DNA from: an uncultured Mitsuokella sp.
GTDB lineage: Bacteria > Bacillota > Negativicutes > Selenomonadales > Selenomonadaceae
Reading direction: 5' to 3'
Length of the DNA: 33,412 nucleotides
Assembly (NCBI GenBank): GCA_945877355.1
Contig: CAMCRT010000022.1
Coordinates: forward strand, 1 to 33,412
Notes under the pieces: generated by a model
Databases searched by the model: none
What the model was told of the DNA's origin: nothing
The model's input: the letters and a program-made list of their open reading frames with translations, nothing else
Translations under genes and position numbers: made by a program
Shown here: positions 11,727-18,218 of the stretch, piece after piece
Layout: every line of letters begins with the position of its first letter
Position numbering within the stretch: the first letter of the stretch is position 1

Positions 11727-13091
11727 CTATTGATAATGATAATTCATCAGGAAGTTTCCCTTTTCATCATAAACTTCTATGGGATTCATTGTGAGCTTTC
11801 CATCTTTGACCCGGAATGCATCCGTATCCACCGTAAATCCATGAAACTTTATCTGGACATCGGAAAACTGCAGATCGCGATAGGTGCTGTGCACTTTTCC
11901 AGCTATGGAATAAAAGGGGATGTAGTGATAGGTTCCCGCCCCAGAGCAAAAACTGCCATCGATTGCTATGGCTCGCGGAGAGCCCATGCTTGCAAAGGCA
12001 AGCTCCAGATCGATGGGGCAGTCAAGACCGCTCCCTGGAAGCGCCTTGCTCGCCTGAAGTCTTTTCCCGATTCCGTATATGTGATAGAACCGCGTGTCAA
12101 AGTTATAATCTCCATTTGCATGGAAATCGCCGCCGAATACCTTTGCCTTTACATCATCAAAGGTCAGGTTCCCGTCTTTGTATGTGATTTCTCCTTGGAT
12201 TTTTTCAAAATGCAATGCGGGGATGTTCAGCTCATCCATTGCAACTGTGCCGGAACCCAAGGGATTTGATAAGGGGCCGGTAAAATATGTTTCCAATGAC
12301 ATCCGCTCTTTTACGTCCATGCCTATGCCAAGAGAAGATGGCTGCACTGCATAAAAGGCAAGAGCCAGGTCAAGAGCCGGCTCTGCTTTCTCTTCAAAGA
12401 GTATTTTTCCGTGAACGGAAATCCCGTCGCCGACCATTGTTCCTCCAAAGCCGCCGATGGAAGCATTGATTGTCATATCCTTATCTGTGTTGATTGTGGA
12501 AACGATATGTACATGATCCATGCGGTATTGCATCTTGCGATAGAAAACCTCCATGCGGCAGTTGTTCAAGAGAAGCTTTGCCTTGATTTTCTTTCCTTCC
12601 CGGTTGAAATTCTGCCATTTTTTCTGCATGGACATTTCACGTCTTTGGCGGCGTTGCTTCCCAATCCATTTGCGTTCTTCCTCGCTCAATCCGTCAAGCT
12701 TGATATTCCGATATGGATCATCGTCCTCCTCTTTCTTCTCTTCTGGGGAGGTCGGCTTGATGAAGTCCAATCGTCCCTTTTCATCCACATGCAGGGAAAA
12801 GACTGCGTTGTTTATGGTGAGTTCCTGGATTGTCGTGGATTTGTAATTGCGGGTAAGGACATCCCAAATGCGGACGCGAAAATCTCCGCTGGGGATATAT
12901 ACGATGGTTTCCCCCTGCATGTCCTTCCATGTGAGGCCTGTAAAATATACGTGACCCGTCAAGTCGGATATGAGACGTTCTACTGTGATCGTTCCCCGGA
13001 ACATGCTCTGTTCTTCCATGGCAGCATTGAAAATTCTTGCAGCACCGAGGCTCAGGAGCTCCAACAGGAGAAGTGTCAGCAAGAACAGCAC
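11727..13091 (-). CDS. AsmA-like/DUF748-type envelope protein, start uncertain
   Basis: At least 454 residues. The N-terminus is a hydrophobic membrane segment. It is followed by a long beta-rich region typical of AsmA, TamB and DUF748 proteins, with motifs such as TIQELTINNAVFSLHVDEKG, DLALAFYAVQPSSLG and LTFDDVKAKVFGGDFHANGDY. A charged, lysine-rich insert covers about 118-165. Relatives bridge the inner and outer membranes and move phospholipids, which fits a diderm Firmicute; that role is inferred. The 5' end is odd. The first conventional start is GTG at 13091, but the frame is open upstream to a stop at 13158-13160 and encodes a basic stretch before the membrane segment, without an ATG, GTG or TTG (see findings). 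A promoter lies at 13191-13220. Confidence 0.75.
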   Translation of the reverse strand: MLFLLTLLLLELLSLGAARIFNAAMEEQSMFRGTITVERLISDLTGHVYFTGLTWKDMQGETIVYIPSGDFRVRIWDVLTRNYKSTTIQELTINNAVFSLHVDEKGRLDFIKPTSPEEKKEEDDDPYRNIKLDGLSEEERKWIGKQRRQRREMSMQKKWQNFNREGKKIKAKLLLNNCRMEVFYRKMQYRMDHVHIVSTINTDKDMTINASIGGFGGTMVGDGISVHGKILFEEKAEPALDLALAFYAVQPSSLGIGMDVKERMSLETYFTGPLSNPLGSGTVAMDELNIPALHFEKIQGEITYKDGNLTFDDVKAKVFGGDFHANGDYNFDTRFYHIYGIGKRLQASKALPGSGLDCPIDLELAFASMGSPRAIAIDGSFCSGAGTYHYIPFYSIAGKVHSTYRDLQFSDVQIKFHGFTVDTDAFRVKDGKLTMNPIEVYDEKGNFLMNYHYQ

Positions 13092-13220: not shown

Positions 13221-13286
13221 AATAAAATAAGAAACTTTGTGGAAGCAATTCATGATTCGAACGAGGCAGATGGGGAGAGGCATGTC

Positions 13287-14159
13287 ATGAGAAATAACGA
13301 AAAGAAACTGGAGCTTCGTTTCGAACAGAAATCCAATCAGAAGCTTCGGAAAAATCAGAAGATAAAGGAACAATCAGATCATGAAATCGGATGGCAACAA
13401 GCAACACAGGGGGAGGAATCGCCAGGCAAAGCGCGGGCAGCAGGCCGTTCTGAGCAGCTTCAGAAAAAACACAGGAGCCGTCAGCTGGAGCGTGTGATTC
13501 GTTCCCGGATTCTGCATATGAAAGAGCTGTCTTCCATGATGCCTGCTCCGATTGTTGCCTTTGATTTGGAACTTGCTGGATCATTTGCAGATGATATCAT
13601 CGAGATTGGCGCTATCCGGGTATCTCCCACTGAGGATCACATCCGCATATTCAGTTCGCTCATCCGGCCGCGCACCTTTGTCAATCGGACGGTACGGAAG
13701 ATGACGGGCATCACGAAAGAAGAGTTGCGTGATAAGAAAACGATTGCCGAGGTCTTGCCGGAATTCCTTTCCTTTGTAGGGGATGATTCCATCATGCTGG
13801 GACACGCGATAGGCGATAACGATCTTCTGAGCATCAATCTCGCCATGTCACGCCTTCGGAAATGTACACATTCACAACGACGATTTTATCCACGTTATAT
13901 CGACACCGTACGGGTTGCACAGAAGGTCTTGCCGAAAACTGTCAAGAAGTTTAATCTGCAATTCCTTCTGGAACAATTCGGCTGGAAGGCGAACCAGTCC
14001 CATCGGGCGTTGGATGATGCGATTGCTTCCTATTTGCTCTTCCAGATGCTTTTGGGTTATCAGGGTGGAAAACCCGCATGGATTCCCAATATCATGAATA
14101 TGAGCGAAGGAGAGGCCTTGCTCAAAGATCGTTTTTTTCATACGCCGAAACTGTTGTGA
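13287..14159 (+). CDS. DEDDh-type 3'-5' exonuclease with a charged N-terminal tail
   Basis: A 290-residue protein. Residues 1-80 are rich in Lys, Arg, Gln and Glu and look disordered or nucleic-acid binding. Residues 88-260 form a DnaQ/epsilon-like exonuclease domain: FDLELAGSFADDIIEIGAI (Asp93, Glu95), a middle GHAIGDND motif (Asp177 or Asp179) and HRALDDA (His239, Asp244). The substrate is unknown; DnaQ-like proofreading or repair is plausible. The ATG at 13287 follows GGGAGAGG at 13273-13280 with 6-base spacing; an upstream in-frame GTG at 13239 lacks such a site. A weak promoter may lie at 13173-13200 (TTGTCT, 16 bp, TATCAT). The probable RNA gene at 14232 is transcribed in the same direction just downstream. 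Confidence 0.85.
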   Translation: MRNNEKKLELRFEQKSNQKLRKNQKIKEQSDHEIGWQQATQGEESPGKARAAGRSEQLQKKHRSRQLERVIRSRILHMKELSSMMPAPIVAFDLELAGSFADDIIEIGAIRVSPTEDHIRIFSSLIRPRTFVNRTVRKMTGITKEELRDKKTIAEVLPEFLSFVGDDSIMLGHAIGDNDLLSINLAMSRLRKCTHSQRRFYPRYIDTVRVAQKVLPKTVKKFNLQFLLEQFGWKANQSHRALDDAIASYLLFQMLLGYQGGKPAWIPNIMNMSEGEALLKDRFFHTPKLL

Positions 14160-14196: not shown

Positions 14197-14225
14197 TTTA
14201 ATCGCCACTTGAATACCCATATAAT
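14197..14225 (+). promoter_or_regulatory. Promoter of the structured RNA
   Basis: TTTAAT at 14197-14202 and a perfect TATAAT at 14220-14225 are separated by 17 bp. A TTGACT at 14192-14197 is also present but lies 22 bp from the -10 box. The predicted RNA start is at about 14232. Confidence 0.55.
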
Positions 14226-14231
14226 AAAAAT

Positions 14232-14390
14232 GAAGGAGATAGGTTGGCAGCCGAAAGGCAATGTATCTTGCCGGCTTCAGTCATATCCTGGGATTTGAAC
14301 GCCAACCACAAATCCGAGTGATAGAAGCCGGCGCCCTTCAACTATATGTTTTTACCAAAAACACGCTCCCTTGCGAGAGCGTGTTTTTGG
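14232..14390 (+). ncRNA. Probable stand-alone structured RNA with a pseudoknot, class not recognised
   Basis: This gene-free stretch carries its own promoter and terminator and several perfect complementary segments. Helix C pairs 14270-14278 with 14324-14332 (9 bp). Helix D pairs 14291-14297 with 14309-14315 (7 bp) and holds an 11-base loop. Seven bases of that loop (14301-14307) are the exact complement of 14242-14248 upstream, which would make a pseudoknot. A small hairpin with a GAAA tetraloop covers 14250-14259, and 14232-14236 can close on 14335-14339. The next downstream gene is convergent, so this is not an obvious mRNA leader. I could not match it to 6S RNA, SRP RNA, RNase P RNA, tmRNA or a riboswitch class I know. 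A 25-codon reading frame starting at TTG 14244 is an alternative reading. Confidence 0.55.
14355..14390. terminator. Strong bidirectional terminator between the RNA and rqcH
   Basis: A perfect 14-bp stem (14355-14368 with 14377-14390) with an 8-base loop has five T within the 3' arm on either strand. It ends the structured RNA on the plus strand and rqcH on the minus strand. Confidence 0.85.
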
Positions 14391-14427
14391 TTGCGAAAAA
14401 TTCAATGTCAACTATCAAGGAAAAATT

Positions 14428-16188
14428 TCATGTTGTCGGTTTGCTGTCAGGAATTTTTGCTTTCTGCGGGTCGATTGGATTGACGTATACTGTCGTCTGA
14501 TTGGTGAAAATGACAAAACCAGGCCTGCTGTGCGCAGGTTTTTTGACATAGCGGACCTTGGTATAATCAACGGGAACCTGTGAGGAATCGCGTGCCTTGC
14601 TGAAATGAGCAGCGAGACCAGCTGCTATCCTTATTGTTTCTTCCGCAAGGGGTTCTCCTCCGTTTTGTACGATTACATGGGAACCGGGGATATCCTTCGT
14701 GTGAAACCATGTATCACTTGGCCGAGCCGTTTTGAAGGTGAGCCGATCATTTTGCGTATTGTTTTTTCCAATCAAAATCAAAGTCCCGTCTGGAGCAGAA
14801 AACTGGAAGGGCCGCGATGGGGGAGCACTGGAATTCTTTTTTTGCTTTTCATGCAGATACCCGGAATTTATGAGCTCTTTTTGGATCTCCGCGATTTCAG
14901 CGAGGGATTCCGATGCATAAAGAGACGATTCTATGCTTTCCAAATAGCGAATGGAGGCCAAGCATTCATCCTTTTGATCTTGGAGGAGGATCTGTGCCCG
15001 CTTGAGCTTGTCATATTTTTTATAGTAGGCCTGCATATTTTCGATCAGCGTGTGCCTCTGATCCAGCTCAATTGTGATTTGTTCTCCTGCCGTACTATAT
15101 ATGTTAGGAACTGTAATAGAGGGATTTTTTCTATCGCTATACGCATATTGATATGTCTGCAGGTTGTCTCCCTTTACTTTGTAGGAATCTGCATTCTCAG
15201 CTGTTTCGATTTCTTCTTCCAGCTTATCAAGTTTGTTTCTTGCACGGGATAATTCATTGCGTACGAATTTTTTGAAGCGTTCCTTGTCCGGCAGTATATA
15301 GGACCCCAACAGGGTATCGGCCTTTTCCAGCATGGAGCTGATAGAGTGGAACGGCAAAGAGGTTGCTGCAGGGAGATAATGCAGCGGGAAGGATGCCATG
15401 GCAAGTATTTTCTTGTTGTCATCCAGCAGGAGGACAGGCTGCGGGGGGGGGGCAAGGATTGCAGTGCGGATTGTCTCAAGCGCATGGGAAATCGAGTCAA
15501 AATCTTTCTCATCAAGGGCATTGATCCGTATCGATACATTGAGCCCTGCCGAAAAACAGATTTCCTTAGCTGTATATGGACCTGCCCCGGAACAGGTTGC
15601 GATAATCGCCTTGTCAAGCCGCTCCTCTTTTTTCTCTTTCAACGATGTTATGATATCTGCAACAGATTGCGTAAGAAGATTACATTTCCTTTGAGCAGGT
15701 GGCAGCTCATAGGGGTTCCCAGGGAGTACGGTTCTGACGCGGCTGTTGTTCTCCCCGATCTTCCGCATTGCATCCACAATTTTCCCATCCGAGATAAGAA
15801 TGATGTTGCTGTATTTCCCCATCAGCTCCAGGGCGAGCGTCTTTGTCACGATTTTTCCGCCAGAAGCAATGCAGTCGATATCGATAAAAATGATGCGATC
15901 GATTTCCCTCTGGCGGATATCGCCAATACGTCCCATCTCGAGCTGCTTCCGGAGCACCATGCAAAACACAGGGGGGATCAATGGATTTTCCATGCTCCTC
16001 TCCATCAAGTAAGCCGAGGAGTTTTGGGAAGCAATCGATATACATAGTGTATGCTGCTTCCCTGTTTGGCGTATGGTCATAAGTACGGTATATTTATTTG
16101 GTTGAAAAATTTTATCGACACGACCGCCAAGCAGGGCATGGCGCAATTCATTGACCAGTGGAACCATAGAAAGTGCATCAAGTGCCAT
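14428..16188 (-). CDS. rqcH: RqcH/NFACT family ribosome quality control protein
   Basis: A 586-residue NFACT protein, formerly annotated as fibronectin-binding protein FbpA. RqcH binds stalled 50S subunits and recruits tRNA-Ala to add C-terminal alanine tails to blocked nascent chains. The NFACT-N domain covers about 1-200 and includes Asp97-Arg98 (in REIDRIIF), the same positions needed for activity in Bacillus RqcH. Helix-hairpin-helix and coiled-coil regions follow, and the NFACT-R domain near the C-terminus has DTWFHTKDIPGSHVIVQ. The ATG at 16188 is chosen because GAGAGG lies about 7 bases upstream and the protein then starts as usual (MALDALSMVPLVNEL). A run of ten C in the coding strand lies mid-gene (15443-15452). 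Confidence 0.95.
   Translation of the reverse strand: MALDALSMVPLVNELRHALLGGRVDKIFQPNKYTVLMTIRQTGKQHTLCISIASQNSSAYLMERSMENPLIPPVFCMVLRKQLEMGRIGDIRQREIDRIIFIDIDCIASGGKIVTKTLALELMGKYSNIILISDGKIVDAMRKIGENNSRVRTVLPGNPYELPPAQRKCNLLTQSVADIITSLKEKKEERLDKAIIATCSGAGPYTAKEICFSAGLNVSIRINALDEKDFDSISHALETIRTAILAPPPQPVLLLDDNKKILAMASFPLHYLPAATSLPFHSISSMLEKADTLLGSYILPDKERFKKFVRNELSRARNKLDKLEEEIETAENADSYKVKGDNLQTYQYAYSDRKNPSITVPNIYSTAGEQITIELDQRHTLIENMQAYYKKYDKLKRAQILLQDQKDECLASIRYLESIESSLYASESLAEIAEIQKELINSGYLHEKQKKNSSAPPSRPFQFSAPDGTLILIGKNNTQNDRLTFKTARPSDTWFHTKDIPGSHVIVQNGGEPLAEETIRIAAGLAAHFSKARDSSQVPVDYTKVRYVKKPAHSRPGFVIFTNQTTVYVNPIDPQKAKIPDSKPTT
15443..15452. repeat. Ten-base G/C homopolymer inside rqcH
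   Basis: The plus strand has ten consecutive G, read as C on the coding strand and encoding Ala-Pro-Pro-Pro. A tract this long can slip during replication and shift the reading frame. Confidence 0.9.
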
Positions 16189-16233
16189 AAAATGACCTCT
16201 CTTATTCAAAATGAAGCGAATCATGCAGCTTAA

Positions 16234-17222: not shown

Positions 17223-17240
17223 GCTGCGCAGGTGAAAAAG

Positions 17241-18218
17241 ATGTTTGCGAATCCCAGGATGGAACAGTTAAGCCGGAAAGCGCTGCAAGAGTATCAATTG
17301 AAGCTCTTGAAAAAACAGATCCGTTGGGCGGAAGAAAAGGTTCCCCTCTATCAGAAAACTTTTCATCAAGCGGGTGTTTCAGGAAAGGATATCGATTGCC
17401 TGGAGGATATTCGGCAGTATCCTTTTCTAACCAGCGAGGATTTGCGGCGTGCGGATGTGTTTGATCGTGTTGCGCTCCCTTTGTCGGGGATTATACGATA
17501 TGACTCGCTGGATATGCAGACGGGCGGTGTGAGCTGGATGTATACGGGTGGGGACATAGCGCATAATCTTGATATGCTCACCCGTGCGATGGTGGCAGGA
17601 GGCATGCATAGGGCATCGATCGTCGGCATTTTAGGCGATCTGTCGAATAGCAGGATGCTTGATGTGCTTCAAGCCTCGGAAGCTATCGGCGCAACGGTGG
17701 TCATTATGGGAGCGGATTATAACAGGTGGGTGCGGATCGTACAAAAGATGCAGATGGATATCCTGATAGGTGCTTCCCAGTCTATCATGCAGCTGATCAT
17801 ACAGCTGCAGGGAAATGGTCTGAATACCTCATCTACCGCCCTTCGAAGTGTTTTCTGCATGAACGAGAGCAGCATCCAAAATCCTATGCAGCGTCATATA
17901 CAGGAGCGCATGCAGGCAAAGGTGTTTAATTTATATGCGACTGTTGACCTGGGAATGTCAGGGATGCTCTATCAATGTTCCGAGCATATCGGACAACATA
18001 TACAGGAAGATTATTTTTATCCTGAACTTGTTGCGTTTAATAGTGATACGCCTGTTGCAGATCTGAATCAAATGGGGGAGCTTGTCATAACATCATTGCA
18101 GGCAGAAGCGATGCCGTTGATACGTTATCGAACAGGCCAAGCTGTCAGTCTGCAAAAGGATCCCTGTGGCTGCGGCAGAACCCATTTACGTATACTGACT
18201 CCATTCCGGATTGTATAG
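17241..18218 (+). CDS. PaaK-like adenylate-forming enzyme homologue, degenerate and C-terminally short
   Basis: A 325-residue relative of phenylacetate-CoA ligase. The fold is recognisable from the N-terminal ALQEYQLKLLKKQIRWAEEKVPLY, from HIQEDYFYPELV (about 253-264), and from the MPLIRYRTG and CGCGRTH motifs. Key parts are missing or changed. The glycine/serine/threonine-rich ATP loop SSGTTGKP has no counterpart (TGGVSWMYTGGD is in that place). The YGxTE motif reads YATVD. The aspartate of RYRTGD is Gln (RYRTGQ). The protein stops just after CGCGRTH, so the C-terminal domain with the catalytic lysine is absent. It is probably not an active ligase; a binding or structural role is a guess. 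The ATG at 17241 follows AGGTGA at ideal spacing. An amidohydrolase follows 41 bp downstream. Confidence 0.75.
   Translation: MFANPRMEQLSRKALQEYQLKLLKKQIRWAEEKVPLYQKTFHQAGVSGKDIDCLEDIRQYPFLTSEDLRRADVFDRVALPLSGIIRYDSLDMQTGGVSWMYTGGDIAHNLDMLTRAMVAGGMHRASIVGILGDLSNSRMLDVLQASEAIGATVVIMGADYNRWVRIVQKMQMDILIGASQSIMQLIIQLQGNGLNTSSTALRSVFCMNESSIQNPMQRHIQERMQAKVFNLYATVDLGMSGMLYQCSEHIGQHIQEDYFYPELVAFNSDTPVADLNQMGELVITSLQAEAMPLIRYRTGQAVSLQKDPCGCGRTHLRILTPFRIV

Follow-up and report, generated by a model that had tools for sequence, protein, structure and literature searches.

A very probable stand-alone structured RNA, unlisted so far, in Mitsuokella and some Selenomonas

A real, so far unlisted and stand-alone structured RNA is very probably encoded in the window, i.e., the whole analysed stretch of 33,412 nucleotides from a gut bacterium related to Mitsuokella. 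The segment is located between an exonuclease gene (RNase_T domain, 13239-14159, plus strand) and rqcH (NFACT domains, 14428-16224, minus strand), and its features are compiled in Table 1. Since evolution has preserved the fold in Mitsuokella and in part of Selenomonas, the RNA is also very probably regulatory. It represents a new family of a kind already known (stand-alone small RNA) and has a narrow distribution.

The arms of the four helices named in the preceding sequence-only reading proved to be exact complements at the positions given there, and two further helices (P1 and P2) were recognised, with P1 closing the structure directly 3' of the -10 box. Folding of the 159-nt segment is far more stable than that of shuffled sequences (z = -7.3; 0 of 200 shuffles equally good), as is that of the 108-nt core without terminator (z = -4.8; 0 of 1000). 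A 7-bp hairpin with seven consecutive loop bases complementary to a segment elsewhere in the RNA was obtained in 16 of 20,000 dinucleotide shuffles. The TATAAT box and the 14-bp terminator hairpin claimed earlier are both in place. A strict promoter/terminator scan of the window reported neither the promoter nor the terminator of the RNA, the former because a consensus -35 hexamer is lacking and the latter because the T run lies inside the stem. Since this stem carries an A tract as well as a T tract, the terminator should be usable from both strands, i.e., also for the convergent rqcH. A TATAAT/TATACT box is found at the equivalent position in nearly all homologues (unclear in member G190), and hairpins with T runs likewise follow P1 in nearly all of them, their sequences being unrelated among copies.

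Table 1 Features of the RNA gene and positions in the window
Feature	Position	Strand	Sequence	Pairing and remarks
Whole RNA gene	14231-14391	+		predicted transcript of ~160 nt with terminator; based on promoter box, structure, terminator and homologues in 12 other genomes
-10 promoter box	14220-14225	+	TATAAT	lies ~6 bases 5' of P1; consensus -35 lacking; assigned by sequence
P1, 5' strand	14232-14236	+	GAAGG	pairs with 14335-14339; weak in short forms; certain Selenomonas have AGGGA/TCCCT
P2, 5' strand	14238-14241	+	GATA	pairs with 14264-14267; weak, missing from short forms
Pseudoknot, 5' strand	14242-14248	+	GGTTGGC	pairs with loop 14301-14307 (GCCAACC); in all long forms, absent from four short Selenomonas forms
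P3 mini-hairpin	14250-14259	+	GCC-GAAA-GGC	retained solely in Mitsuokella-type copies
P2, 3' strand	14264-14267	+	TATC	pairs with 14238-14241
P4, 5' strand	14270-14278	+	GCCGGCTTC	pairs with 14324-14332; double-sided compensating changes
P5b, 5' strand	14291-14297	+	GGATTTG	pairs with 14309-14315; covariation strongest here, with double-sided changes in 6 of 7 pairs
11-nt apical loop	14298-14308	+	AACGCCAACCA	GCCAACCA invariant across all homologues
P5b, 3' strand	14309-14315	+	CAAATCC	pairs with 14291-14297
P4, 3' strand	14324-14332	+	GAAGCCGGC	pairs with 14270-14278
P1, 3' strand	14335-14339	+	CCTTC	pairs with 14232-14236
Terminator hairpin	14355-14390	+		14-bp stem 14355-14368/14377-14390; A tract and T tract

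The helices are present in the relatives, and the compensating changes that had been proposed as a check were found in P4 and P5b, though not in the pseudoknot helix. In a MAFFT alignment made without fitting to the structure, pairing is found in 82.7 % of the cells. Both partners of a pair have changed in 32 cells of P1, P4 and P5, as compared to 13.0 +/- 3.1 in shuffles (0 of 500 reached this count), and the signal was lost when the partners were slid against each other (4-15 such cells). The loop-adjacent pairs of P5b, for example, are T-A in Mitsuokella and C-G in Selenomonas, with pairing kept, another A-T pair of this helix becomes T-A or G-C between genera and is still paired, and in genome G090 the P4 helix is kept despite G-C to A-T changes. 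Most variant pairs are G.U when read on the plus strand and few are A.C, as expected for an RNA with the sequence of this strand. The pseudoknot held up in part: its pairing is exact and occurs in most copies, including Selenomonas copies with diverged flanks, whereas covariation is absent and the 5' strand is missing in four homologues. Since its two strands almost never vary (the sole variation being one G.U), the pseudoknot rests on conservation rather than covariation. In two long Selenomonas forms (L118 and L046), the 5' end may also pair as GGGAYA/TGTCCC, where a T-to-C change stays paired; this pairing competes with P1 and represents a possible alternative fold.

A DNA search of related genomes yielded three strong homologues. 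Covariance models, the first built from four sequences and the second from ten, identified the RNA in 13 genomes including that of the window, with one copy each: three in the genus of the window, three in Mitsuokella (including M. multacida DSM 20544 and M. jalaludinii DSM 13811) and seven in a Selenomonas ruminantium-like clade. No further clear member was detected among 380 genomes of the class searched with strict filters. An exact-pattern scan of 84,980 species gave 21 matches, with clear model scores only in Mitsuokella, Selenomonas and a Selenomonadaceae MAG. The genome of the window contains no second copy, and searched phage and plasmid records contain no real homologue. Two pattern matches in viral contigs (model E ~0.09) were rejected as chance, since the inspected one falls within a long ORF.

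The RNA occurs at two unrelated loci. In Mitsuokella and the genus of the window, its upstream neighbour is the exonuclease gene, and downstream follow the convergent rqcH, a LysR-type gene or others, the LysR-type gene of Mitsuokella being 270-370 nt away and having a promoter-like sequence of its own. In Selenomonas, the RNA is divergent from pflB, starting ~180-200 nt from the pflB start codon, and ftsY is convergent further downstream, where checked. These two settings, and the -10 box and terminator hairpin that almost all copies possess, argue for an independent RNA gene rather than a leader, as had been claimed in the sequence-only reading: no constant same-strand position upstream of a controlled gene, as a riboswitch or leader should occupy, was found, and a promoter and terminator belonging to the RNA itself are recognisable by sequence. 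Derivation of the RNA by processing from the 3' end of the exonuclease transcript was discarded as a general account, the Selenomonas copies being divergent from pflB. The other Selenomonas genomes examined lack the RNA in the intergenic region next to pflB. Within one Selenomonas genus-level group (g17), the seven RNA-bearing genomes share a pflB type of their own, with 77-92 % identity to an 87-aa N-terminal probe (partly approximate in sequence and serving as probe only); the other 14 genomes of this group with a pflB match show 57-70 % identity and no RNA at that site. In Mitsuokella sp. oral taxon 131 (locus L042), the RNA ends at 1611 and is followed by GATAGGGGTTCAATTCCTATC and then the terminator; GATAGGGGTTCAATTCCTATC resembles a tRNA T arm, the rest of a tRNA being absent.

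As judged from the aligned copies, conservation is at the RNA level, the RNA strand is the plus strand, the RNA is independent of its neighbours, and the loop is invariant even where its cis partner has been lost. The loop follows the consensus A(A/T)(C/T)GCCAACCA, with one base missing at the start in three short forms. Four short Selenomonas copies lost the P2/P3 domain together with the GGTTGGC strand and kept the loop CGCCAACCA exactly, suggesting that the loop is probably constrained beyond the cis pseudoknot and probably has a partner other than the pseudoknot strand. In searches for short exact sites, the loop complement GTGGTTGGC was not clearly commoner than a reversed control, and at translation starts no gene carrying it was shared between genera. 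Likewise, GGAGGTTGGC overlapping the Shine-Dalgarno sequence is neither enriched nor common to genera at start sites (again short exact sites), and GGAGG-TTGGC at start sites is not more frequent where the genome has the RNA (6/86) than where it does not (8/68). Selenomonas pdxT-like and nitrogenase-like genes (named by eye) carry GGAGGTTGG and represent candidate start sites.

Because the loop appears to be constrained by something besides the cis pseudoknot, a contact in trans, with RNA or protein, is the simplest account. Base-pairing through the loop is the favoured mode of such action, at about even chances. The single-copy, non-coding gene would be transcribed independently, yielding a product of ~110 nt plus terminator, in which P1 would enclose a long P4-P5 arm beside the small P2/P3 domain. 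This arm would present the 11-nt apical loop, and the exposed, invariant loop bases would pair with a further RNA of the cell. In copies of the long type, GGUUGGC of the P2/P3 domain would fold onto the loop as a 7-bp pseudoknot, thereby possibly masking or presenting it. One may further speculate, tentatively, that the loop switches between two states, one in which the pseudoknot strand shuts it in cis and one in which it is free for one conserved partner in trans, and that one lineage lost the cis lock and kept the contact.

A protein-binding RNA would account for the same observations as a base-pairing loop. Here, the GCCAACCA loop and the P4-P5 arm would bind a protein for titration or guiding, similar to 6S or CsrB and without mRNA pairing. 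The invariance of the loop next to varying stems, the single-copy, stand-alone gene and the lack of conserved complementary target sites in the short exact-site searches agree with such a role. On the other hand, no protein is pointed to, and an open loop of 10-11 nt with an exact cis complement (in the long forms) would be more typical of base-pairing. This less probable explanation is the main rival and is retained because the short exact-site searches gave neither enrichment of RNA targets nor a start site shared between genera.

An orphan ligand-sensing RNA, whose pseudoknot would close on a metabolite and thereby control terminator read-through, would be compatible with the compact pseudoknotted fold preceding a terminator hairpin and with the alternative 5' pairing predicted for two long Selenomonas forms. 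It is nevertheless improbable, since no downstream gene stands in constant relation to the RNA (rqcH in the window and ftsY in Selenomonas being convergent, and the LysR-type gene of Mitsuokella having its own promoter-like sequence), the pseudoknot is dispensable in four genomes and no Rfam riboswitch matches. The sensor suggested in the sequence-only reading finds no support, there being no controlled downstream gene, a neighbour that differs by lineage and a terminator in between. Even less probable is a non-functional remnant, i.e., a cryptic hairpin or decayed element kept by recent common descent alone: the narrow distribution and the loss of P2/P3 and half of the pseudoknot in four Selenomonas forms would be expected from decay, whereas compensating changes across genera, the persistence of promoter box and terminator, the occurrence of conserved copies at two unrelated loci and the absence of other copies from the genome and from phage or plasmid records would not. 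Least credible is a small protein-coding gene or leader peptide with codon constraints mimicking structure. Mechanical ORFs do cross the region, so that its earlier description as gene-free is correct only in the sense of lacking a conserved reading frame, and one frame is open in the window and in genome G001. However, the homologues vary in length by 1, 2 and more bases, stops interrupt the frame in other members, and paired positions covary at the RNA level. With homologue cores of 89-119 nt and indels not divisible by three, no reading frame is conserved, and the broken frames largely refute a coding function.

The earlier assignment outside known RNA families withstood the covariance-model search that it had named as a possible refutation. 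In Rfam 15, the window segment matched nothing at gathering score and, at E<=10, gave chance matches only, mostly to the terminator; the RNA body of seven homologous loci had no match either. The ribozyme considered in the sequence-only reading finds no support, ribozyme families being included among those without a match. The window RNA likewise shows no match to the 6S model (RF00013). It resembles 6S RNA in being a stand-alone non-coding RNA gene and differs in being a separate gene in the same genome, where 6S RNA lies on another contig (C1:58885-59063) and scores above the family cut-off. Bacterial small RNAs that act in trans through an open hairpin-loop seed are typically intergenic, single-copy and 90-160 nt long, with their own promoter, an intrinsic terminator and an exposed loop. 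The window RNA is alike in its intergenic position, length, promoter box, terminator, single copy and exposed invariant loop, and it differs in that the 7-bp pseudoknot of long forms additionally pairs with the loop in cis and in that no Rfam 15 family matches.

Structured RNAs described for Negativicutes include the gltD, ldh2, ilvD and potE motifs (PMC8632094) and the SLH motif (PMC6429828), as well as the guanidine-IV variant Gd4v (PMC9788692), which consists of two hairpins joined by a pseudoknot, one of them being the terminator, and occurs in Mitsuokella jalaludinii. They share with the window RNA the bacterial class and their discovery by comparative genomics, and Gd4v also has a pseudoknot. 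All of them, however, are described as leaders upstream of associated genes, whereas the window RNA has no such gene. As far as the descriptions show, their architecture also differs, and the two-hairpin layout of Gd4v is unlike P1-P5. No description of the window RNA was found in the literature consulted, leaving aside the human-microbiome candidate list of PMC8040213, where an anonymous earlier listing is possible. A stand-alone small RNA is added here to a class whose described RNAs, in the literature found, are leaders. This unlisted RNA gene with covariation support belongs to common gut and rumen bacteria with culturable hosts (Mitsuokella multacida, M. jalaludinii and Selenomonas ruminantium), and the natural long and short versions provide a built-in test of the role of the pseudoknot.

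Elsewhere in the window, two long open frames at 17232-18215 and 11730-13091 (328 and 454 aa) have no Pfam match at E 0.001; the one at 17232-18215 resembles, by eye, an adenylate-forming enzyme.
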